Source of the DNA: Bacillota bacterium
Lineage (GTDB): Bacteria; Bacillota; Clostridia; Christensenellales; Pumilibacteraceae
NCBI GenBank assembly: GCA_019113265.1
Contig: DXHT01000029.1
Location: 1 to 48,812 of the forward strand
Direction: 5' to 3'
DNA length: 48,812 bases
Part shown: in pieces, positions 34,586-48,812 of the stretch
Layout of the letters: each line of letters opens with the position of its first letter
How positions within the stretch are numbered: position 1 is the first letter of the stretch
Translations under genes and position numbers: made by a program
The notes under the pieces: model-generated
Told to the model about the DNA's origin: nothing
What the model saw: only the letters and a program-made list of their open reading frames with translations
The model's database searches: none

Positions 34586-34703
34586 AGTTATGCGCGTGAC
34601 TATGATGTGCGTTTTATAGAGTGCTGAATGCTAACGCGCGCATTATCGCAAAGCGTAGCCGAATGCTGTCGTCACATTGTACGTTAAACGGTTGCGTCGC
34701 CGA

Positions 34704-34732
34704 TTGACAAAGTCGTGCAGTAGTGGTATTAT
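34704..34732 (+). promoter_or_regulatory. luxS promoter
   Basis: TTGACA -17 bp- TATTAT. Confidence 0.75.
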
Positions 34733-34808: not shown

Positions 34809-35273
34809 ATGAAGATAAAGAGTTTTGAAGTGGATCATACCAGACTGCGCCCCGGCGTATATCTGTCGCGGACGGACGGGGAAGAGGGCAATGAAATATC
34901 GACGTTCGACGTCCGTCTGACCATACCCAACCGCGAGCCGCCTGTGGATATGCCCGCGCTCCACACGATAGAGCATCTCGGAGCGACGTATCTGCGAAAC
35001 AGCGACATAAAGGACGACGTGGTATATTTCGGACCCATGGGCTGTCGCACGGGTTGCTATATGCTGCTGCGCGGCAAGCGTACGGCGGAAGAAGCCGCGC
35101 GCATAACGGAAGAAATGTGCGATTTCATTCTCGGATTCGGCGGAGACATTCCGGGCGCGACCGAAAAGGAGTGCGGCAACTGGCGCGAGCACAATCTTAA
35201 AGAGGCAAAGTACTATATTTCCCGCTTTCTTCGTCTGCTTAAAACGGAGCGCAACTTAAAGTACCCGGACTGA
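34809..35273 (+). CDS. luxS: S-ribosylhomocysteine lyase
   Basis: FEVDHTRLRPGVYLSRTD, HTIEHLGATYLRN, FGPMGCRTGCYML, ATEKECGNWREHNL. Confidence 0.97.
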   Translation: MKIKSFEVDHTRLRPGVYLSRTDGEEGNEISTFDVRLTIPNREPPVDMPALHTIEHLGATYLRNSDIKDDVVYFGPMGCRTGCYMLLRGKRTAEEAARITEEMCDFILGFGGDIPGATEKECGNWREHNLKEAKYYISRFLRLLKTERNLKYPD

Positions 35274-35287
35274 GCGTCATCAAACGT

Positions 35288-35418
35288 AAAAAAGCCCCGA
35301 CATGAAATGCACCCCAAAAGTTAGACAAACTTTTGGAGGTGCATTTCAGAACTCATTCACAAGCTATTTAGTTATTTTATTGTCCAACTTTTGGGGTCCA
35401 TAGCAACAGGGGGCTTTT
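35288..35418 (+). terminator. luxS terminator interrupted by IS-derived insertion
   Basis: aaaaaagcccc (35288-35298) and gggggcttttta (35409-35420) are complementary arms separated by the 98-bp element. Confidence 0.6.
35303..35400. mobile_element. 98-bp MITE/internally deleted IS3-family derivative
   Basis: Begins tgaaatgcaccccaaaagttagac (same as the IS end at 48607) and ends gtccaacttttggggtcca (inverted terminal sequence); no transposase. Confidence 0.75.
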
Positions 35419-36027: not shown

Positions 36028-36166
36028 TAAGCACCTTTTTCGCGGTTATTTTGCGCTACGCTCCGCCGTGCGTTCACTTCGCCGAGCGAATGCGCTTTCA
36101 CGGATATGTTTCAAATCCGATACCGATCTTGCGCCGTCCGCGCATTAAAAATTGTCGCATCCGCTA

Positions 36167-36195
36167 TTGACAATCCCGGCGGCTTGTGATATACT
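36167..36195 (+). promoter_or_regulatory. Promoter for GHKL kinase
   Basis: TTGACA -17 bp- TATACT; overlaps inverted repeat ATTGTC-N12-GACAAT (36151-36174). Confidence 0.7.
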
Positions 36196-36217
36196 TTCAA
36201 CCGTCGGGGGAGAACGA

Positions 36218-37555
36218 ATGACACAGTTTGAATTTTACAAATCGTTCATGTTTGTGGCGGAGCTTGCGATAGCGGAACTTCTGTATGTGAACAAATTCCG
36301 CAGACGCAAGCTGTTTGTACTTCGCGCGGCAGGTGGCATAATCGCACTGTTCGCGTTTGCTTTTTTATTTCCCGTCGCTTCCGAGAATCCGTTTTACTGC
36401 TCGTTCGTGTTCCTCTCCGTCTTCCTTGCGAGCGTACTCGTATGCAAGCTGATGTTCGCGGAGAAATGGATCTCCATAATATTCTGTACGATAGCGGGCT
36501 ATACGACTCAGCACCTCGCATATGAACTGTTCAACATAATCATGTCGCTTCTCGGCGCGTCGGCGGCGGGCAATATGTACGGCAGTGCGGCGTTTGCGGG
36601 CATATTCGAAAACCTGTATGAAGTCGCCATATACGCGGCGGTATATACTGTGACGTACTTTGTCGCTTATCTGCTTTTTGCGAGCAGACTCAAAAGCGGA
36701 GAGCCCATCAGACTGGAAGCGAAATTTTTCTTCATACTCAGCATAGTGCTCCTTATGATAGACATATTCCTAAACGCCGTCGTGGTGTATAATCCCGTCA
36801 GCGGCGCGGAACTGCACGCCATGATAATAGGCGTATACAACATAGTCTGCTGTATAATATCCCTTTATCTGCAATTCGAGGTGACTCTGAGAAAGAAGGT
36901 GGAAAGCACGCTTGACACGGTGCAACAGATGTGGCACAAGGCGAAAGAGCAGTACGCCGCGTCCAAGGAAAACATAGAATACATAAACATGAAGTGCCAT
37001 GACTTCAAGCATCAGATGCACGCACTGCGCGGCGGAGCGGTGAGCGACACGCTGATAAGCGACATAGAGAAGCGCATAACGATATACGACTCGTCCGCGC
37101 AGACGGGCAACGACGCTCTCGACGTGGTGCTTACCGAAAAGAGTCTTGCATGCAACAATAACGGCATAAGGCTTACGATAATAGCGGACGGAAAGAAGCT
37201 GGACTTCATGGCGCAGGAAGACATATACGCGCTGTTCGGCAATATCCTCGACAACGCGATAGAAGCGGTACATAAGCTGGACGAGAGTCGCCGCGTCATC
37301 AGCCTGCACGTCAAGACGATAGAGGGTATACTGATAGTAAGGGAGAGCAACTATTACAGCGGCGAGCTGAGGTTCGAGAACGGACTTCCCGTGACGACTA
37401 AGACGGACAAGCGGTACCACGGTTTCGGGCTTAAAAGCATTCAGTACATATGCGGACGTTACGGCGGCGACCTGTCCATAAAGACGGACGGCGGCGTATT
37501 CGACATGAGCATAATGTTCTTCCGCAGTGTGCCCGCGGGCAACAGGGACGCATGA
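36218..37555 (+). CDS. GHKL-domain sensor histidine kinase (AgrC/NatK-like), multi-TM sensor
   Basis: About 6-7 TM segments, H-box KCHDFKHQMHALRGG, N-box NILDNAIEAVH, G-box HGFGLKSIQYICGRYGG. Confidence 0.9.
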   Translation: MTQFEFYKSFMFVAELAIAELLYVNKFRRRKLFVLRAAGGIIALFAFAFLFPVASENPFYCSFVFLSVFLASVLVCKLMFAEKWISIIFCTIAGYTTQHLAYELFNIIMSLLGASAAGNMYGSAAFAGIFENLYEVAIYAAVYTVTYFVAYLLFASRLKSGEPIRLEAKFFFILSIVLLMIDIFLNAVVVYNPVSGAELHAMIIGVYNIVCCIISLYLQFEVTLRKKVESTLDTVQQMWHKAKEQYAASKENIEYINMKCHDFKHQMHALRGGAVSDTLISDIEKRITIYDSSAQTGNDALDVVLTEKSLACNNNGIRLTIIADGKKLDFMAQEDIYALFGNILDNAIEAVHKLDESRRVISLHVKTIEGILIVRESNYYSGELRFENGLPVTTKTDKRYHGFGLKSIQYICGRYGGDLSIKTDGGVFDMSIMFFRSVPAGNRDA

Positions 37556-37575
37556 GCCGTCGCTATATCGAAAAG

Positions 37576-37599
37576 AACGCGCTTCGGCGCGTTTTTTTG
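37576..37599 (+). terminator. Intrinsic terminator after GHKL kinase
   Basis: aacgcgc-ttcg-gcgcgttttttt (UUCG loop). Confidence 0.85.
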
Positions 37600-37730
37600 T
37601 GCGGTAATGTAAGGTTACGACATCAAAACGCCAGAGTGTGACAAAAATATGACACGGCTTTAATGTCGTGATATAATGTGCGCGTAAAAAGAAAATGCGT
37701 CGCATTGGGAATGCGGCGAAAAAGGAGATA

Positions 37731-40700
37731 ATGATGAGCATAAAACCGCGTTCGAAAGCGGGCATGATATGGTTTATCATACTTGCGAGTCTGTTTGTAC
37801 TGCTACTTGTCATAACGATAGTGATAACGCAGAATAACCTCATTTATTATACGATAAGTTCCAAATTCGGCGGGGGAAGCAAATACCTTAAAAGCGGCGA
37901 TCCGGATATGTACGTATACTATTCGTTCAAAGAGGGTGACCCGACGGACAAAGCGGGCGCGCTTGCGGCGGCGAACGCGCTCAACGAGCGCATATGCGAA
38001 GAGGGCAGCGTACTTCTCAAAAACGACAACGACGTTCTTCCGCTTGCGCGCGGCAGCAAAGTGACCGTACTCGGCAGAAATTCCGTCGATCTCGTATACG
38101 GCGGATCGGGTTCGAACGCTGGCGCGTCCGAAATGGAAAAACTCGATCTCGGCGATATGCTGGAAAGCGTGGGCGGATTCGAGTATAATCCGGTGGTGCG
38201 CTCATATTACGAGGGACTGAACATAAGCCGTCCCGATTCCACGTCCATGGGCGTTACATACACGGGATTTCCCACGGCGGAAGCGCCCGTGGGCGATTAT
38301 CCCGATGCCGTAAAGCAGAGCTATTCCGAATACGGTGACGCGGCTATCGTAGTAATTACCCGCATATGCGGCGAGGGATACGACCTCCCGCGCACGATGT
38401 TCAAAACGGGAAATTCCTATACGGACTGGACGTCTCAGAATCGCACGGTTGTGGACGGAGCGGACAGCATGGACTCGCACTATCTGCAACTTGACAAAAA
38501 CGAGCGTGCGGTTCTCAAAGAGGCATGCGACAACTTTTCGCGCGTGGTGCTTCTCATAAACAGTGCCGCGCCCATAGAGCTCGGCATTCTGGAAGAGGGC
38601 GAATTTGCCGACAAGGACATAGCCGCGCTGTGGATGGCATATCCGGGCGAGAGCGGACTGAATGCCGTCGGAAGACTGCTCAACGGCGAGGTAACTCCGT
38701 CGGGAAGGACGGTAGACACATGGTCGCGCAATTTCAAGCTCGATCCCGCATGGCAGAACTTCGGCAACAATCTCAGCGCGGACGGCAACAGATATACTTA
38801 TAACGGCGACCTGAAAAGCTCACGCTTCGTCGAATACCGCGAGGGCATATATGTGGGATACCGCTGGTTTGAAACGCGCGCTTCTTACGACGAGAGCGGC
38901 GCGTGGTATGCCGATAACGTAGTCTACCCGTTCGGTCACGGACTCAGTTATACGACGTTCGGGCGCGAGGTTGCGGCAGATACTCCGACAGACTCGACGT
39001 TGGCGGAGGACGGCAAGCTGGAATTTACCGTGACCGTCACCAACGACGGCAAAATGTATTCGGGAAAGGACGTAGTTCAGCTTTACTACTCGTCGCCGTA
39101 CATGGACGGCGGCATAGAAAAAGCGCACGTCGCTCTGGGCGACTTTGCAAAGACAAAGGAGCTTGAACCTGGCGAGAGCTGTGAGGTGACGCTTTCGATA
39201 GACGTGCGCGACATGGCGAGTTACGACTACAACGACGCCAACGGCAACGAATTCAAGGGCTGGGAGCTGGACGGCGGAACGTACTCCGTATACATAGGCT
39301 CGGACGCGCACTCGTGGGCGGACGATGCAACGCCCGTATTTACTTACACCGTACCCGAAAGCGGCTACCGCTATCCGACGGACGACTATAACGAGGGCGC
39401 GCAGATAACCAATCTGTTCGATGACGAGAGCGAGTATATGAGCGGAAAGGTACTTTCCCGCGAAAACGGTTTTGCCGATTACGACGCGATAAAGGGCGTT
39501 GCCGATCAGCGCGAACAGTCCGAATTTCTGCGCGGTCTGATCGAAGCTAAGATGACGGACGAACCGGGCGCGCCCTGGTACGCAGAGACCGCGCCGACTT
39601 ACAGCAAGCGTTCGCTGTCATACTCCGATTGCGAGGTCAAGCTTTACGATCTCATCGGCAAGGACTACGACGATCCGCTCTGGGACGCGCTTCTCGATCA
39701 GCTGACCGTATCCGAAATGGCGTCCATAATAGAAACGGGCAATTTCCGTACCCTGCAACTTGAAAACATAGACAAACCGCTGACGATAGATGCGGACGGG
39801 CCCATGGGATTTGCGCTGTTTATGGGCGACTCGTCGGTGTACGACACCTGTCGGTATGCATGCGAGTGCCTTGTGGGCGCGACGTTCAACCGCGAGCTTG
39901 CGCGCGAGCAAGGGCGTTCGGTCGGCATAGAGGGACTTGTGGGCAACGAGCAGGGGGACGGAACGCCGTATAGCGGCTGGTACGCTCCCGCGGTCAATCT
40001 GCACCGTTCGCCCTTTTCGGGACGCAACTTCGAGTATTACAGCGAGGACGCATTCCTTTCGGGCGAAATGGGCGCAAACGTCATACTCGGCGCAAAGGAA
40101 TACGGAGTATATACGTTCGTCAAGCACTTTGCCTTAAACGATCAGGAAACGGACAGGGACAATAACGGACTGCTGACATGGGCGGACGAACAGACCATGC
40201 GCGAGATATACTTCAAGCCGTTCGAGACCTGCGTCAAAAAGGGTCAGACGCGCGGCATGATGAGCGCGTTCAACCGCATAGGCGCGACGTGGGCGGGAAG
40301 CGATCACGATCTTCTCACCGCACTTCTGCGCGACGAGTGGGGCTTCCGCGGCGCGGTGATAACCGACTTCAACGTCAAGTCCTACATGGATCCCGACGAC
40401 ATGATACGGGGCGGCGGCGACATCAACCTTGCCGCAGGTAAAACGCTTGCCGATAAGCGTTCGGCTACGGCGATATCCTGTATACGCCGCGCGGCGAAAA
40501 ACATCATGTTCGTGGTTGCGGGCAGTAACGCGATGAACGGTCACGGAGCGGGCGTCATCTGGGGATACACTTTGCCCGGCTGGCTGGTGCTTCTTATCGT
40601 GATAGACTGCGTAGTGGGTGCGGGAACGGTCGGCTGGGGACTGTACGTATTCCTGCGCCGCCATGCGCAAAAGAAAAAACTCGCCGTGCGCACCTCGGAC

Positions 40701-40736
40701 GGCGCGACAGATACGAACAATAAAACCGACGAATAA
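37731..40736 (+). CDS. Membrane-associated GH3 family glycosidase with permuted domain order (GH3_C - FnIII-like - GH3_N), N- and C-terminal TM
   Basis: N-terminal TM, EEGSVLLKNDNDVLPLARGSKVTVLG (GH3_C), YPFGHGLSYTTF (FnIII-like), then DGPMGF, NLHRSPFSGRNFEYYSEDAFLSG, KHFALNDQE, AVITDF (GH3_N), C-terminal TM. Confidence 0.9.
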   Translation: MMSIKPRSKAGMIWFIILASLFVLLLVITIVITQNNLIYYTISSKFGGGSKYLKSGDPDMYVYYSFKEGDPTDKAGALAAANALNERICEEGSVLLKNDNDVLPLARGSKVTVLGRNSVDLVYGGSGSNAGASEMEKLDLGDMLESVGGFEYNPVVRSYYEGLNISRPDSTSMGVTYTGFPTAEAPVGDYPDAVKQSYSEYGDAAIVVITRICGEGYDLPRTMFKTGNSYTDWTSQNRTVVDGADSMDSHYLQLDKNERAVLKEACDNFSRVVLLINSAAPIELGILEEGEFADKDIAALWMAYPGESGLNAVGRLLNGEVTPSGRTVDTWSRNFKLDPAWQNFGNNLSADGNRYTYNGDLKSSRFVEYREGIYVGYRWFETRASYDESGAWYADNVVYPFGHGLSYTTFGREVAADTPTDSTLAEDGKLEFTVTVTNDGKMYSGKDVVQLYYSSPYMDGGIEKAHVALGDFAKTKELEPGESCEVTLSIDVRDMASYDYNDANGNEFKGWELDGGTYSVYIGSDAHSWADDATPVFTYTVPESGYRYPTDDYNEGAQITNLFDDESEYMSGKVLSRENGFADYDAIKGVADQREQSEFLRGLIEAKMTDEPGAPWYAETAPTYSKRSLSYSDCEVKLYDLIGKDYDDPLWDALLDQLTVSEMASIIETGNFRTLQLENIDKPLTIDADGPMGFALFMGDSSVYDTCRYACECLVGATFNRELAREQGRSVGIEGLVGNEQGDGTPYSGWYAPAVNLHRSPFSGRNFEYYSEDAFLSGEMGANVILGAKEYGVYTFVKHFALNDQETDRDNNGLLTWADEQTMREIYFKPFETCVKKGQTRGMMSAFNRIGATWAGSDHDLLTALLRDEWGFRGAVITDFNVKSYMDPDDMIRGGGDINLAAGKTLADKRSATAISCIRRAAKNIMFVVAGSNAMNGHGAGVIWGYTLPGWLVLLIVIDCVVGAGTVGWGLYVFLRRHAQKKKLAVRTSDGATDTNNKTDE

Positions 40737-40750
40737 AAGGAGGAAATAAT

Positions 40751-41473
40751 ATGAAACTCAAAAAAATCGCAATGGCAGCGCTTTTCGCGCTCATAGCCGC
40801 GCTTACGTTCGCGTTCGCCGCTTGCGGCGACGGCGCTCCCGCCGAAAACGGCGGCAACGGAAGCGACCTCGATCCGTCCATAACGGAAACGGAGACTCCG
40901 TCCAAATACACCATGCAGGCGGAGTACATAGACCTTGACGGAGTCAAGGGCAGCGGTCTCAGCAACTCCGCGGAGGGCGTCGCCATGATAACGGGCAACG
41001 GCACGGACGCGGAAAAGGAAAAGGGCTGGGGCGAGGGCTACTACGTCAGCCAGATGCACGCGGCGGGCTGCCGACTCGACTTCGTGTTCACCGCAAGGTC
41101 CGCGCAGACCACTTCCATATCCGTAAGGCTCAGCTCCGAGCTCGGTCAGCTCACGTTCACGCCTCAGGATCTCGCATTCATGCTCAACGATAAGGAACTG
41201 CCTTATACGACGCTCGTGGTCAAGGGCGCGCAGACTTCCACTCCCGACCTTACGGCGGCGGTGTTCAACGACTACACCATAACCACGAGCGTGATGCTCG
41301 AAAAGGGTGAGAACACATTCTCGATAATGGTCAGGCAGAACTCACTGCGCGGCGACGGCAATGTGGCGGGACCCATGGTGGACAGCGTGACGTTCACTAC
41401 CAAAGCGGTGCTCGAATGGACGGATCATAAGGATAACATATCCAGGCGCGACAATTCCGAATCGGATATGTGA
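40751..41473 (+). CDS. Lipoprotein with CBM6/35-like domain
   Basis: Lipobox LTFAFAAC; beta-rich domain AEYIDLDGVKGSG...VDSVTFT. Confidence 0.7.
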   Translation: MKLKKIAMAALFALIAALTFAFAACGDGAPAENGGNGSDLDPSITETETPSKYTMQAEYIDLDGVKGSGLSNSAEGVAMITGNGTDAEKEKGWGEGYYVSQMHAAGCRLDFVFTARSAQTTSISVRLSSELGQLTFTPQDLAFMLNDKELPYTTLVVKGAQTSTPDLTAAVFNDYTITTSVMLEKGENTFSIMVRQNSLRGDGNVAGPMVDSVTFTTKAVLEWTDHKDNISRRDNSESDM

Positions 41474-41509
41474 TCTGCCGTCATAAGGAGATAAAAGGAG
41501 GAAAATATA

Positions 41510-43471
41510 ATGAAATCCATTGCAAAGATTGCCGTGTCGGCGATATGTCTGTTTCTGACACTCGTTACGGCAGCGGTATTTGCGGCGGGATGCGGCTTTA
41601 CGAGGGATAGCGAAAACGTGGAAATAACGTTGCCCGACCCCGTAGTGGTGCGCCCCGAGCCTTATGACGCGGTCAAGTCCGTTTCCGTTCTGTATAACGG
41701 AACGGCGGCAAGCGTCATAGAGGCGGATATCGCCGCAGGCGTGATAAATCTCACCGCGAGCGTCATAAAGGACGACGGTGCGGACGGCTCCGTGACGTGG
41801 AGCAGCGATGCGCCCGCCGTCGCGTCCGTAAATGCGGTCGGTGTGGTGAGCCTGAACGCAACGGGCGTCGCGGCGATAACCGCAACGGCGGGGAGCAAGA
41901 GCGCGAGCGTTGTCATAACCGTATCGGATATGGCGTCGGAGTCACGCACGTATACTTTGACCGTATCGGGCGGTACTGCGAGCGTCGGCGGCGCGGCGGC
42001 GACTACTGCGAAAGCGGGCGACTATGTGGAGCTTACCCCGACGCTCACAGAGGGTATGACTTTTGACAAGTGGGTGCTTACGACGGGCGAAACGCAGAGG
42101 GATCTGCGCTCTCACGGTTTCGTCATGCCGAGCGGCGACGTAAGCGTGACGTTGGTGCTCAAAGCGCGCGAATATACGCTCAACCTCGTGGGCGGTCAGT
42201 TGTACGAGGCGGGTAAACCCGTTGACGGAACGGACGGCGGAGTGAGCATAGACAACGAACCCGTAATGAGATATTCGGTGGCGAGCGGCTCTTCCGTGAC
42301 GGTAGTGGCTGACGACACTGCCGCGGGCTATATGTTCGTCGGCTGGGATCTCAACTATGCCAATCAGCGCACGGGCGGAGCGGGGCAGAAGGAGTATACG
42401 TTTGCCATGCCCGCCGAGGATACGACGCTGTTCGCCGTCAACTCCAAAGAGCTGGGTGCAATGCTCAATCCGGGCAGAGCGGACAGGTACAAGAAATTCA
42501 ACAGCACGGAAAAGGGCTTCGGAGAGATAGTGAACGGAGTCGCTCCCGGCGGCTCGGTAGCTGACCCCGATCTCGAAGGGCTCAGCGGCTACCGCCTTGC
42601 GATCCCCGCGGATACGACCGGATCTACCGCTTTCTCGGAGAATATAGAGGACACCACCGCGCTTAATACCATGAACGGCGCGCAGACCGTCAAGGTGATA
42701 TTCAAGAACCACAGCAACAAATACGACGTATCGGTGGACTTCGGCGCGTCCTACAACGACAACCGCGCAAATACCGGAACGGTGACCGTGCCAAAGGGCG
42801 AAACGGTGACGGTGTGCTTCGAGGCGGCGATAGGTTTCGCAAATCCTTGGGCGTCCATAAACGTGCGCACCGATATCGGCGGCAGCGGTAGCGAAACGGT
42901 GCTTCTCGACATGGTGACCATGCGCGCCGCGACATATCCGAACGGCGATCCGTTCATAAACCGCACTAACGGCAAGCCCGTTATTCTTAACGCGGCATGC
43001 ATTCAGGACGGCAACCTCGGCAGTACGGGATCGTTCGGCAACGTCCGCAACTACTTTATGATCTGCTACATCAACGGCAGCAAGTCGGGCAGTGTCGCAT
43101 TCGAAGTGACCAACATGCCCGCGTACGACACGATAACGCCCGACACCGACGGCAAGCGTTATACGACGATATACGTTCAGGTGCGCTCCAACGTCAATTA
43201 CGACTTTGTGCGCCGCGTCGGATTCGGTAAAGATATGTATCCGATGCAGAGTTCGGAAAATACGGTGTTCGCCGAGTTCCATACGACGACTAAGGACGAC
43301 GTCAGCCTGCTTGCGCTCAAGATCGAGCGCACTCCGGACGACGCGGGTGAAAAGTTCTATATCAGCTACATTCACGACAGTCCGGAGCTTGGCGGCATAT
43401 CTGGCGGACGTTCCAATTTCACCTTAGCGTTCTATTACAACAACGTTATAGGATACGGCGGGGAGGTATGA
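41510..43471 (+). CDS. Lipoprotein with Big_2-like and InlB/Flg_new-like repeats
   Basis: Signal/lipobox AAVFAAGC; VTWSSDAPAVASVNAVGVVSLNATGVAAITATAG (Big_2-like); GMTFDKWVL and GYMFVGWDL repeats. Confidence 0.75.
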   Translation: MKSIAKIAVSAICLFLTLVTAAVFAAGCGFTRDSENVEITLPDPVVVRPEPYDAVKSVSVLYNGTAASVIEADIAAGVINLTASVIKDDGADGSVTWSSDAPAVASVNAVGVVSLNATGVAAITATAGSKSASVVITVSDMASESRTYTLTVSGGTASVGGAAATTAKAGDYVELTPTLTEGMTFDKWVLTTGETQRDLRSHGFVMPSGDVSVTLVLKAREYTLNLVGGQLYEAGKPVDGTDGGVSIDNEPVMRYSVASGSSVTVVADDTAAGYMFVGWDLNYANQRTGGAGQKEYTFAMPAEDTTLFAVNSKELGAMLNPGRADRYKKFNSTEKGFGEIVNGVAPGGSVADPDLEGLSGYRLAIPADTTGSTAFSENIEDTTALNTMNGAQTVKVIFKNHSNKYDVSVDFGASYNDNRANTGTVTVPKGETVTVCFEAAIGFANPWASINVRTDIGGSGSETVLLDMVTMRAATYPNGDPFINRTNGKPVILNAACIQDGNLGSTGSFGNVRNYFMICYINGSKSGSVAFEVTNMPAYDTITPDTDGKRYTTIYVQVRSNVNYDFVRRVGFGKDMYPMQSSENTVFAEFHTTTKDDVSLLALKIERTPDDAGEKFYISYIHDSPELGGISGGRSNFTLAFYYNNVIGYGGEV

Positions 43472-46400
43472 TGATGAAAAAGAGAGTAAGACCTGTTTAC
43501 GCGCTTTGCGTCGGCATTATACTCGCGGCGTGCATAGCGGCGGGTTGCCTGACCGCGGTGCGCGCATACGCCTCGGAGAGCGGAGGAATGCCTCAGTTCG
43601 GCAACTACTTCGTATCCGACTATGACAGTAAGGCGGAAGCGGTCAAAGCCAATCAGGCGACAAACGAACAGATAGTTTCCGAAGGAACGGTACTTCTTAA
43701 AAACGAAGACAACTCGCTTCCCGTTCCCTTAGGCTCTAAAATAAGCGTGTTCGGAAAGAACGCGGACAGAATGTTCCGCGGCTCCAGTATGACGGGTGCG
43801 CTGACTCAGGAGGGATACTCCGTAAACCCCACGCTGAGAAGTTTCTATTCGGACAGCTCAAAATCGGGAGACGGATTCAGATCTTCGTCGGGTTCGGACG
43901 GCTCCATGCCGTCGGGCAAGACGACGGGTGAAACGCCCGTGTCCATGTACACCGACGACGTGACTCAGTCTTTCGACGAATACAACGACGCGGCGATAGT
44001 CGTCATATCCCGTAGCGGCGGCGAGGGAACGGACATCACCCGCACGATGCAGTGCAAGGACGTCAACGCGACGGATGCTGACAACTTCCAGTATTGGGGA
44101 GAGGACGCGGTAGCCGTCAAGGGCGCGCGCAATAAGGACGACCACTATCTCCAACTCGATCAGAACGAAACGGACATGATAAAGATGGTGGGCGAGAAGT
44201 TCAATAAAGTCATAGTCATTCTCAATACCAGCTCGCATTTCGAGTGCGGATTCCTCGACGACCCGGGGCATTACGCATATTCGCCCGCCATCAAAGCCGC
44301 TCTCTGGGTGGGCGAGCCGCTGACGACGTTGCCCGTCGCGGGCGTAATAAGCGGGCGGATAAACCCGAGCGGTCATTTGCCGGATACCTTTGCCCGCGAC
44401 TTCAAAGCGGATCCGACGTGGCAGAACTTCGGCAATCAGCGCGTTAAAGAGGGCAACGTATATTCCAACCTGACTGCCAACAACAGGTACAAAAAGCACT
44501 ATGTGTATTACAAGGAAGGCATATACTACGGCTACTACTATTACGAAACGCGCGGCTTGACCGAGGGCGACGCCGCATGGACGGCGAGCGGACAGGCGGG
44601 CGATCTTGCGATAAACGGCACTACCACCGAAGAGTGGAGCAATTGGTACGACGCGCACGTCGTGTTCCCGTTCGGTCACGGATTGTCGTATACGTCGTTC
44701 GACTGGGAGATAGTGGACGCTCCGACGGAGCCCGTCGCGCTTGACCCCGACGGCGATATACAGATCACCGTAAAGGTGACAAACACGGGAACGGTCGCAG
44801 GCAAAGACGTTGTCATGCTCTTCTCGTCCTCCCCGTACTTCACGGGCGAAATAGAGAAACCCGCCGTAAGACTTGCCGAGTTCGCCAAGACGGATATGCT
44901 CTATCCCGTATCCGAAGCGGGCGAGGGCAAACCCAACTCGCAGGAGATAACGCTCACGTTCGCGGCACGCGACATGGCGAGCTACGACTATTCGGACGCC
45001 AACAAAAACGACTTCAAGGGATACGAGCTTGAAGCGGGAACGTATGACGTATACGTCAGCCGCAACGCGCACGACAGATCCGATCGGCTCAAAGTCAGTT
45101 ACACGCTTTCTCAGGACGAGAGGTTTGAAACGGACGAGTACAGCGGACAAAAGATAGAAAACAGGTTCGACGAGGTAAGTAACGAGCTGACCGAGGGCGA
45201 GGGCGAACGCTATCTCTCCCGCGCGGACTGGACGGGAACTTTCCCGACGGCGTCCGTAAGTATAGACGCACGTCAGTGGATAGTGGACAGTCTGGAAGAG
45301 TGGTACACCGTATTCCCCGAAGACGAGGGCAAACCCTATTATACGGAAAACATGCCCACGCAGGGCGCGAAGTACGAAACGCCCATATTGCTCAAATATA
45401 TGTTCGGCTTGCCGTACGATGATCCGAAGTGGGAAGACTTTCTCGACCAGCTCACCGTCGATCAGCTTACGCAGATAGTGACGCAGGGCTTCCTCAAATC
45501 GGGCATAGACATACCCGAACTCGGTATAAAGCAGATAATAAACGCCGATACGCCCATGGGTTGGGCGAACGTACCCGGAATGAGCGGCGCGGGATTTGCA
45601 AAGATAACGGTGCTTGCCGCGACGTTCAACCGCGAGCTTGCATATGCTCTCGGCAAGGGAATGGGCGAAGAGGCGCTCTGGGGAACGGGCGAGTCAGGCT
45701 CCAACATACCCGGCTGGTACGCGCCCGCAGTCAACCTGCACCGCTCTCCCTTCGGAGGCAGAACGGGCGAGTATTACAGCGAGGACGGCGTGCTTACGGG
45801 CAAACTCGCGTCTCAGGTAGTCATGGGCGCGCGCACCAAGGGGCTTTACACATACGTCAAGCACTTTGCCATAAACAATCAGGAGTCTCAGCGCATGGGC
45901 GTGTTTACCTGGGCAAACGAGCAGTGCATGCGCGAACAGTACTTCATACCGTATGAGATATGCGTCAAAGAGGGCAAGGCGACGGGCGTGATGACGGCGT
46001 TCAACCGCATCGGCGCGACGTGGGCGTTCGGCGATTACGACCTCATTACGGGCGTGCTCAGGGGCGAGTGGGGCTTCATCGGAAGCGTGGTCACCGACTG
46101 TCTGTGGGCGGCGGAATACGTAAACGGCGACGCGATGATACGCGCGGGCGGCAGTCTTGCGCTCAGTAACGTTGCGACCATTTCGTATAACGTAGGCACT
46201 CCGACGACGGTAAGCCTGCTCAGAAGATCGGCGAAAGACGTACTTTACCTGCACGCAAACAGCATGGCGATAAACGAGGGCGACTACCCGACCACTCCCA
46301 AAAAGATGCTCGGCTATTCGGCGGAAAAGCTGGATATAGCGATAGTGGGCGAGCCGTACAGCGCGACCGTTGCGACTGCGGAGCTGAACGTCAAGTGGTA

Positions 46401-47589
46401 TCCCGATCTCGATATCGCAAACGTGACTTATGCTCTCGCTCCCGGGTTCCGACTTCCCGACGGCTTGCGGCTTTCTTCGGACGGAAGTATATCGGGAACG
46501 CCCGAATACTCCATAAACAACTATCAGTTCAAGGTCATTGCGACGTACGGCGACGAGCAGATGACGAGCGATGCGTTCTCGCTCACCGTGATCGATTCCA
46601 GCGGATCGATAGTGTACGCGGCGCAGTCCGATCTCGGAACGATAAACATAGGCGAAACGGCGGATATAGACGTGGGCACTGCGGAGATCGTCCTCGGCGA
46701 TCCTTCCGAGACCAGCCCCGTGACCGTGTTCTATTCGCTTAAAAGCGGCTGTGCGCTTCCCGAGGGTCTTTCTCTCTCGCCCGATGGCAGGATAACGGGA
46801 ACTCCGAATTCGGCGGCGGTAAATTGCAAGTTCACCGTTGTGGCGAGCGCGATTGGTTACTACTCGCAGGAAGCTGAATTCACGCTCAGCGTGCTCGGCA
46901 AGATAACGTTCTCGGGCGGCACGCTCGGTGACGGCAGATTCGGCGAGGCGTATGTGAGCAAGGTGGACTTTGCTACGGGCGCGGATAACGTGACGTATGC
47001 GCTTAAAGAGGGAAGCAAACTTCCGAGCGGGCTCGAACTTACGAGCGGCGGCTATATAGTGGGAACGCCCTCCGAAACGTGCACGAACGCGACGTTTACC
47101 GTCGTGGCGTCCGCACCTCTTGCCGAGAGCGCGGAAGCGGAGTACAGCATGAGCGTGGGTATCGCGCTTTCTCCCTTCCTCTCCTCCGTGCTTACGGACG
47201 GTAAGACGGGCGAGGCTTACTATGCGAGCGTGAACAACGTCATGGGCGCGTCCTCTCCCGAGTATACGCTTAAAAACGGTTCGACGCTTCCCGAGGGTCT
47301 GACGCTTTCGACGAGCGGCGAGATAACGGGAACGCCCTTAAAGAGCGGAATGTATACCTTCACGGTTACCGTCAGCGAGGACGGCGCGATAGGCGACGAA
47401 AAGGAGTTTACGATATATGTGAGCGAGCCGTCCAACGTCGTCAGCGCGGAAGTTCCCGCAAGTGGTAACGACGATCTCGTGGTGCTTGCCGCAGTGTCTC
47501 TGGCGCTCGGCGCGGCCGGACTGCTGACCGGCGCGGCGGCTCTGATAATAACCGCTATACGCGGCAAGGGCAGGAGCGGAAAGAATTGA
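43468..47589 (+). CDS. Exported GH3 family glycosidase, permuted domain order, four He_PIG-like Ig repeats and C-terminal TM
   Basis: EGTVLLKNEDNSLPVPLGSKISVFG; YTSFDWE; NLHRSPFGGRTGEYYSEDG; KHFAINNQES; four LPxGLxLSxxGxIxGTP repeats; C-terminal TM plus KGRSGKN; ATGA overlap with upstream gene. Confidence 0.9.
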   Translation: MMMKKRVRPVYALCVGIILAACIAAGCLTAVRAYASESGGMPQFGNYFVSDYDSKAEAVKANQATNEQIVSEGTVLLKNEDNSLPVPLGSKISVFGKNADRMFRGSSMTGALTQEGYSVNPTLRSFYSDSSKSGDGFRSSSGSDGSMPSGKTTGETPVSMYTDDVTQSFDEYNDAAIVVISRSGGEGTDITRTMQCKDVNATDADNFQYWGEDAVAVKGARNKDDHYLQLDQNETDMIKMVGEKFNKVIVILNTSSHFECGFLDDPGHYAYSPAIKAALWVGEPLTTLPVAGVISGRINPSGHLPDTFARDFKADPTWQNFGNQRVKEGNVYSNLTANNRYKKHYVYYKEGIYYGYYYYETRGLTEGDAAWTASGQAGDLAINGTTTEEWSNWYDAHVVFPFGHGLSYTSFDWEIVDAPTEPVALDPDGDIQITVKVTNTGTVAGKDVVMLFSSSPYFTGEIEKPAVRLAEFAKTDMLYPVSEAGEGKPNSQEITLTFAARDMASYDYSDANKNDFKGYELEAGTYDVYVSRNAHDRSDRLKVSYTLSQDERFETDEYSGQKIENRFDEVSNELTEGEGERYLSRADWTGTFPTASVSIDARQWIVDSLEEWYTVFPEDEGKPYYTENMPTQGAKYETPILLKYMFGLPYDDPKWEDFLDQLTVDQLTQIVTQGFLKSGIDIPELGIKQIINADTPMGWANVPGMSGAGFAKITVLAATFNRELAYALGKGMGEEALWGTGESGSNIPGWYAPAVNLHRSPFGGRTGEYYSEDGVLTGKLASQVVMGARTKGLYTYVKHFAINNQESQRMGVFTWANEQCMREQYFIPYEICVKEGKATGVMTAFNRIGATWAFGDYDLITGVLRGEWGFIGSVVTDCLWAAEYVNGDAMIRAGGSLALSNVATISYNVGTPTTVSLLRRSAKDVLYLHANSMAINEGDYPTTPKKMLGYSAEKLDIAIVGEPYSATVATAELNVKWYPDLDIANVTYALAPGFRLPDGLRLSSDGSISGTPEYSINNYQFKVIATYGDEQMTSDAFSLTVIDSSGSIVYAAQSDLGTINIGETADIDVGTAEIVLGDPSETSPVTVFYSLKSGCALPEGLSLSPDGRITGTPNSAAVNCKFTVVASAIGYYSQEAEFTLSVLGKITFSGGTLGDGRFGEAYVSKVDFATGADNVTYALKEGSKLPSGLELTSGGYIVGTPSETCTNATFTVVASAPLAESAEAEYSMSVGIALSPFLSSVLTDGKTGEAYYASVNNVMGASSPEYTLKNGSTLPEGLTLSTSGEITGTPLKSGMYTFTVTVSEDGAIGDEKEFTIYVSEPSNVVSAEVPASGNDDLVVLAAVSLALGAAGLLTGAAALIITAIRGKGRSGKN

Positions 47590-47603
47590 GATAACGCCCT
47601 GAC

Positions 47604-47640
47604 GGAAAAACGGGCGGAAAAAATTTCCGCCCGTTTTTCC
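47604..47640 (+). terminator. Intrinsic terminator (17-bp perfect stem)
   Basis: GGAAAAACGGGCGGAAA-aaa-TTTCCGCCCGTTTTTCC. Confidence 0.9.
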
Positions 47641-47699
47641 AAAATTCTGGAATTTCGGCTTAAAGTGTGTTATAATCGTAGTGTATAGAGGATTCAGTC

Positions 47700-48425
47700 A
47701 TGATAAACGTTGCGATTGTGGACGACGAGCAGGCGGTGCGCAAGCAGCTCGCCGAATATGTGGATAAATATGCCGCGGAAAGCGGCATAGAGTGCGGTGT
47801 AAAATGTTTCGACAGCGCCCTCTCGTTTGTCAATCGTGATAAACCCGCATTCGACCTGATCCTTCTCGACATAGAAATGCCTGACGTCAGCGGCATGGAG
47901 CTTGCCTCGCAGATCCGTAAGACGGATACGTCCGTGGCGATAATTTTCGTTACCAATATGGCGCAATACGCGATACGCGGCTATGAAGTGGATGCTTCCG
48001 ACTTCATAGTAAAGCCCATATCGTACGGCGATTTTGCCATGAAAGTGGGGCGAATTTTCCGCAGGATAGTCCAACGCCGCGATACGCAGATAACGGTCAC
48101 CGACGGCGACACCGCAAAGCGCATCCCCGTTTCGGACATACGATATGTGGAGGTGCAGGGTCACGCGCTGACATATCATATGCGCGACTGCGTGATAACG
48201 GAGCGCGGAACGCTCAAAAAGCGCGAAGAGGCGCTCCTTGACAGCGGCTTTGCGCGGTGCAACAATTATTGCCTCGTCAACCTGCGTTTCGTCTCCGCGG
48301 TCAACGGCTATACGGTGTTCGTTTCGGGCGGCTCGGGCAGGGCGGCGGAAAGTCTGTCCATAAGTCATCCTCGAAAAAAGGACTTCATACGCGTCTTAAA
48401 CGAGTATTGGCAGGCGAATATGTGA
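47700..48425 (+). CDS. LytTR-family response regulator
   Basis: Receiver VAIVDDEQAVRKQLAEYV...DLILLDIEMPDVSGMELA...VKPISY; LytTR DNA-binding domain IRYVEVQGHALTYHMRD...FARCNNYCLVNLRFVSAVNGYTV. Confidence 0.9.
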   Translation: MINVAIVDDEQAVRKQLAEYVDKYAAESGIECGVKCFDSALSFVNRDKPAFDLILLDIEMPDVSGMELASQIRKTDTSVAIIFVTNMAQYAIRGYEVDASDFIVKPISYGDFAMKVGRIFRRIVQRRDTQITVTDGDTAKRIPVSDIRYVEVQGHALTYHMRDCVITERGTLKKREEALLDSGFARCNNYCLVNLRFVSAVNGYTVFVSGGSGRAAESLSISHPRKKDFIRVLNEYWQANM

Positions 48426-48542: not shown

Positions 48543-48577
48543 CGGCGGTGCGGGCAGACCCGCGCCGCCGTTTTTGT
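48543..48577 (+). terminator. Intrinsic terminator
   Basis: ggcggtgcggg-caga-cccgcgccgcc then ttttt. Confidence 0.8.
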
Positions 48578-48606: not shown

Positions 48607-48812
48607 TGAAATGCACCCCAAAAGTTAGACGAAACTTTAGGAGGTGCATTTATTATGCAAAGGAAGAAACACAACACAAAATACTCGCCGGAATTCAAGA
48701 TATCTGTTATAATGGATATGCGAGAAAACCATTTGGCGTATAGAGAAACGGTGCGTAAGTATTGGAATACACGATCACGCGCCGAAGAAGATTTATACGT
48801 GCATACCGTAAA
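48607..48812 (+). mobile_element. Left end of IS3-family insertion sequence, truncated by window end
   Basis: Terminal tgaaatgcaccccaaaagtta..., then a transposase ORF at 48655. Confidence 0.85.
48655..48812 (+). CDS. IS3-family transposase OrfA (partial)
   Basis: MQRKKHNTKYSPEFKISVIMDMRENHLAYRETVRKYWNTRSRAEEDLYVHTVK; typical OrfA HTH N-terminus. Confidence 0.85.
   Translation, partial: MQRKKHNTKYSPEFKISVIMDMRENHLAYRETVRKYWNTRSRAEEDLYVHTV

Follow-up and report, generated by a model that had tools for sequence, protein, structure and literature searches.

Gene content of the locus

We analyzed a window of 48,812 bp that constitutes one entire contig (C21) in the 98-contig draft of a small, gut-type Clostridia genome (G000; 1.54 Mb, 92% complete). 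Open reading frame (ORF) calls and Pfam matches identify six full-length plus-strand genes between positions 36218 and 48425, which encode a GHKL sensor kinase (K), a glycoside hydrolase family 3 (GH3) enzyme (Ga), two lipoproteins (L1 and L2), a second GH3 enzyme (Gb) and a LytTR response regulator (R), in that order (Table 1). The locus is best read as a permuted, intact copy of a GHKL/LytTR system that lacks recognized agrBD genes, is expanded in this lineage and controls surface glycosidases. The genomes used for comparison are all drafts, the majority of them metagenome-assembled.

A first-pass annotation made from the sequence alone had described two GH3 proteins and two lipoproteins flanked by K and R about 10 kb apart, an ATGA coupling of the last two intervening genes, and a separate promoter and terminator for K, for the GH3 block and for R. 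ORF coordinates and Pfam assignments agree with this arrangement, including the L2-Gb overlap (Gb starts at 43468 and L2 ends at 43471). The promoters of K and the GH3 block and three terminator hairpins are likewise present; the promoter of R has a good -10 element only.

Table 1. Features of the locus and its borders, in window coordinates
Feature	Position	Strand	Remarks
IS3-like remnant, both ends, no transposase	35303..35403	+	TGAAATGCACCCCAAAAGTTAGAC forms left end, at 35303; right end around 35385-35403; end sequence shared with 48607
K promoter, TTGACA-17-TATACT, extended -10	36167..36195	+	11/12 consensus match
K, GHKL sensor kinase	36218..37555	+	HATPase_c_5; at least 5 hydrophobic segments; His261
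Intrinsic terminator after K	37571..37598	+	fold z -2.6
Predicted LytTR binding site, direct repeat TAAGGTTACGACA / CCAGAGTGTGACA, 21-bp period	37610..37643	+	ends 5 nt before Ga -35
GH3 operon (Ga) promoter, ATGACA-17-TATAAT, extended -10	37649..37677	+	11/12 consensus match
Ga, permuted GH3 enzyme	37695..40736	+	hydrophobic anchor at both ends; acid/base E227, nucleophile D891
L1, lipoprotein	40751..41473	+	CBM35-like beta-sandwich (predicted structure)
L2, lipoprotein	41510..43471	+	Big_2 and InlB-type repeats
Gb, permuted GH3 enzyme	43468..47589	+	He_PIG repeats, C-terminal anchor; acid/base E186, nucleophile D877
Intrinsic terminator after Gb	47604..47640	+	fold z -7.1
R promoter, -10 TATAAT, extended; weak -35	47671..47676	+	direct reading
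R, LytTR response regulator	47700..48425	+	phospho-acceptor Asp57
Intrinsic terminator after R	48543..48575	+	fold z -5.1
IS3-like element start: end repeat and start of transposase frame	48607..48812	+	contig end cuts element

Both GH3 enzymes have a permuted domain order. The Pfam domain Glyco_hydro_3_C (residues 106-389 in Ga, 74-356 in Gb) precedes Glyco_hydro_3 (763-898 and 684-879, respectively). Ga more likely starts at 37731, where an in-frame ATG has a ribosome-binding site, than at the position called. The acid/base glutamate and nucleophile aspartate align with known catalytic residues in both proteins. The matching residues of Thermotoga neapolitana Bgl3B are E458 and D242. The best alignments of Ga and Gb are to beta-glucosidases, and both proteins fall below the NCBIfam equivalog cut-offs for a named specificity.

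L1 has no Pfam match. The top Foldseek matches to its predicted structure are CBM35 structures (E-value 1.7e-6), the best-modelled blocks have predicted local distance difference test (pLDDT) scores of 84-96, and the modelled fold is a CBM35-type beta-sandwich. In L2, Pfam identifies Big_2 and InlB/Flg_new-type repeats, with no assignment for the C-terminal half; a structure model of this protein was discarded due to its mean pLDDT of 41.

K matches HATPase_c_5 (PF14501, 3.3e-26) and has a membrane-embedded sensor region without a large extracellular domain. R combines Response_reg (PF00072) with LytTR (PF04397). The phosphorelay residues of both proteins (Table 1) are conserved. The first-pass annotation had seen no agrB or agrD in the vicinity. 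For agrB this now extends to the whole genome, which has no match to the AgrB family (PF04647). No small peptide gene is recognized beside K, and no agrD was seen, although no model search for it was made.

A predicted LytTR site at the GH3 operon promoter

LytTR operators consist of direct repeats of about 9 bp, spaced by 10–13 bp and located upstream of the -35 element (PMC11347149), so a repeat period of 21 bp is expected. Direct repeats with this period are enriched in the regions before R genes and after K genes of the module family described below, occurring in 29 of 111 regions compared with 3.4 in shuffled sequence and about 7 for other periods. We trained a position weight matrix (PWM) on these sites with the window excluded; its consensus is TAAGGTTATGCCG repeated twice. 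The repeat at 37610 scores 17.1 with this matrix, second among all positions on both strands of the 48.8 kb. Such a score is expected 0.03 times per shuffled window and was reached in none of 2000 local shuffles. The repeat still ranks second, on the plus strand and overall, when the whole clade of related loci is dropped from training. It fits the operator definition in repeat length, spacing and placement upstream of the -35. The distance from the end of the site to the -35 element is 5 nt in the window; among relatives it is usually 6 nt, ahead of a TTGAA -35.

The position of this site predicts that R regulates the GH3 block as a unit. No LytTR-type site was found before K or before R in the PWM scan of the window. 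The canonical paralog on contig C43 of the same genome (L023, 4078-16568) differs in having a perfect 11/11 repeat, AAAGATAGGGC, before its R gene; the sequence of this repeat is unlike that of the window site. We do not claim that autoregulation was lost through permutation, as the loci G007:C29 and G006:C28, in which R stands in front, also have no repeat before R. Repeat sequences vary from locus to locus within the genome, and this variation hints at insulated binding specificities, a suggestion drawn from sequence comparison.

A family of regulator-kinase-GH3 modules

The source genome encodes 21 LytTR genes, 20 GHKL genes and 35 GH3 barrel domains. All 19 GHKL genes other than K lie directly downstream of a LytTR gene, in line with the earlier remark that such genes are normally adjacent. 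Only K and R are without an adjacent partner in the genome; the LytTR gene on C20 (L021, 1070-2535) sits with a truncated GHKL gene from which the ATPase domain is missing. By coordinate comparison, 16 of the 20 GHKL genes, K included, are followed within about 5 kb by a GH3 gene on the same strand, and modules occur in tandem on C37 and C44. Across the genus, LytTR-type matches range from 5 to at least 27 per genome. A further order variant, in which a kinase precedes a LytTR gene and then GH3 genes, occurs at one locus from more distant Clostridia (L048, 4853-6905). In the literature searched, no account of GHKL-LytTR-GH3 modules turned up.

We put forward, tentatively, a general picture of these modules that is possible but short of probable. 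The lineage would carry about 20 parallel, mutually insulated GHKL-LytTR systems, each with its own direct-repeat box before its own permuted GH3 surface operon. Together they would form a transporter-less counterpart of the regulator-linked polysaccharide utilization loci (PULs) of Bacteroides, in which AgrC-type kinases read glycans rather than peptides and the pair can be separated and permuted without losing its wiring.

The main alternative for the signal is an agr-like peptide pheromone circuit that has surface glycosidases as its output. K belongs to the HATPase_c_5 type, as does AgrC, its sensor is membrane-embedded with no large extracellular domain, and a LytTR-like match lies over luxS (see below). 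However, no AgrB was found in the draft genome, no candidate peptide gene adjoins K, and the partner that is fixed across the copies is a GH3 gene and not a peptide gene. We consider such a circuit unlikely. Because AgrB was not found and GH3 genes are the fixed partners, we favor a glycan- or envelope-related cue as the probable input.

Are K and R cognate partners?

In trees computed by maximum likelihood from 46 K and 47 R proteins, the window K and R fall into one strongly supported clade (100/99 in both trees) of the same 12 loci. The K clade has 12 rows and the R clade 13, the thirteenth being the ortholog of the window R from genome G006. Since both proteins belong to the same clade of loci, K and R are most likely cognate, as judged from these phylogenies.

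The gene content of the clade is consistent. L2, Gb, Ga and L1 genes accompany R-K on C43 of the same genome, G006:C28, G007:C74, G042:C13, G106:C43 and in Candidatus Coproplasma avistercoris, a named relative with a canonical six-gene locus. The first four of these have the same six genes as the window and differ from it in their order, R-K-L2-Gb-Ga-L1, which is found in most clade members with enough flanking sequence. The first-pass annotation had proposed a neighborhood search for a conserved kinase-GH3-lipoprotein-GH3-LytTR order. Relatives do share the gene set, but it is the window that is permuted with respect to the canonical order. K and R families adjoin each other in these relatives, and are not each paired with other partners. 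In genome G007, one contig carries R-K-Ga and a second, which resumes about 13 codons later, carries Ga-L2-Gb. If the two contigs are joined, moving R to the end of the G007 order and including L1 gives the order in the window.

It is nevertheless conceivable that R is uncoupled from K, being either an orphan or driven by another kinase (that of C43 or another clade member, for example), with K a leftover or communicating with another regulator. K and R have separate promoters, and G006 retains an R gene (dN 0.22, dS 1.2, the nonsynonymous and synonymous divergence from the window R) with no close K ortholog found nearby. However, K, R and the operon are intact, His261 and Asp57 are conserved, and no other kinase or regulator of this type in the genome is left unpaired. 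These observations make uncoupling rather improbable.

Separation of the kinase and regulator genes

The rule that R lies directly upstream of K does not hold in the window or in a remnant locus of G006, where R is last in both cases. The G006 R ortholog (66–67% identical) directly follows a Gb remnant that consists of He_PIG repeats and an anchor. No kinase accompanies it, and the next gene is unrelated and on the opposite strand. The divergence values given above indicate that the two R genes are under purifying selection. The K-Ga junction recurs in G007:C29, there with R ahead of K. The two odd junctions in the window, Gb-R and K-Ga, are thus supported independently by G006 and G007.

The contig ends 387 bp past R. 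Beyond the terminator of R begins an IS3-like insertion sequence (IS), present with its end repeat and first codons before the contig end truncates it, and no kinase start lies between R and this element. At least 11 copies of this end repeat occur in the genome, several of them at contig ends, which accounts for the contig break after R. IS3-like ends in the same orientation bracket the entire kinase-to-regulator locus, the left copy being about 100 bp long.

Alternatively, R could be the first gene of a further R-K-GH3 module whose kinase lies beyond the contig end, with K and R neighbors by chance. The adjacency of R and K elsewhere, the tandem modules on C37 and C44 and the nearby contig end all suit this explanation, which we consider very unlikely. 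It is opposed by the strong terminator and IS after R with no intervening kinase start, by the G006 locus, in which the orthologous R is also last in its cluster, and by the membership of K and R in one clade. The terminator, the IS and the G006 arrangement led us to reject a contig-edge artefact, and the split between K and R is neither such an artefact nor due to chance. That the locus is decaying and its regulation lost is hardly credible: only a remnant survives in G006 and IS ends flank the locus, but all six genes are full-length, with catalytic residues kept and promoters and terminators intact.

Tandem duplication followed by deletion would be expected to leave traces, and we found no recognizable remnant of R before K or of K after R. 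The permutation may have arisen by duplication and loss or by an IS-mediated event.

Proposed regulation

We propose that K and R form a cognate pair that activates Ga-L1-L2-Gb within a permuted module, and assign this account as a whole a probability of about 0.68. K would sense a cue outside the cell or in the membrane, most likely connected with a beta-linked glycan of plant or host origin or with products of its breakdown, and would phosphorylate R at Asp57. Phosphorylated R may then bind the direct repeat upstream of Ga and activate the adjacent promoter, which would drive the four-gene operon. The output would be a pair of permuted GH3 exo-glycosidases anchored at the surface, together with two surface lipoproteins, of which one has the predicted CBM35 fold. 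The R gene probably went from first to last position in the operon before this species and G006 diverged. The interpretation in the first-pass annotation is, as a whole, supported.

Several observations weigh against this account. The second half of the predicted site, CCAGAGTGTGACA, is degenerate. A slightly stronger PWM match (18.6) lies at 34687-34720, over the promoter of luxS (34809-35273), so either the specificity of the PWM is imperfect or there is a second target of R. The G006 R ortholog persists without this kinase and could have another partner there. Finally, the source genome is an incomplete draft.

The repeat over the luxS promoter may serve a LytTR regulator as a second target, at which it would act as a repressor, or may be due to chance. 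We rejected luxS as a conserved LytTR target because none of nine relatives has this repeat upstream of luxS.

If the proposal is correct, the roughly 20 paralogous modules of sensor, regulator and enzyme in this 1.5 Mb genome constitute a natural test bed. They would address what AgrC-type kinases sense without agrBD, and how many near-identical two-component systems remain insulated from each other within one cell. The split copy allows pairing to be tested independently of gene adjacency, and the module copies are easily cloned and assayed.

Comparison with known systems

The locus shares with the AgrC/AgrA system of agr quorum sensing a GHKL/HATPase_c_5 membrane kinase, a LytTR response regulator and, as predicted here, a paired direct repeat of 21-bp period before a sigma-70 promoter. 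It differs in that no agrB was found and no agrD seen (without a model search for the latter), in its outputs (permuted GH3 enzymes plus binding lipoproteins), and in the distance of about 10 kb between kinase and regulator genes, which in agr are adjacent in one operon.

Two-component regulators beside glycoside hydrolases and binding proteins are also a feature of Gram-positive PULs (gpPULs). The Roseburia gpPUL Ros-7, for example, lists a LytTR response regulator and a histidine kinase (PMC5320581). Unlike the gpPULs, the locus described here has enzymes of a single glycoside hydrolase family (GH3) that are anchored in the membrane, exists in about 20 parallel copies within a 1.5 Mb genome, and has no sugar transporter among its six genes, the rest of the window being partly annotated.

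The permuted domain topology itself is known from the GlyA1 subfamily of GH3 (PDB 5K6L; PMC5104943). As in GlyA1, a sandwich domain precedes the Fn3 domain and the barrel, the acid/base and nucleophile residues are conserved, and the proteins come from digestive-tract bacteria. The enzymes of the window are distinguished from GlyA1 by membrane anchors at their ends, by the He_PIG repeats of Gb, and by their linkage to a two-component system.

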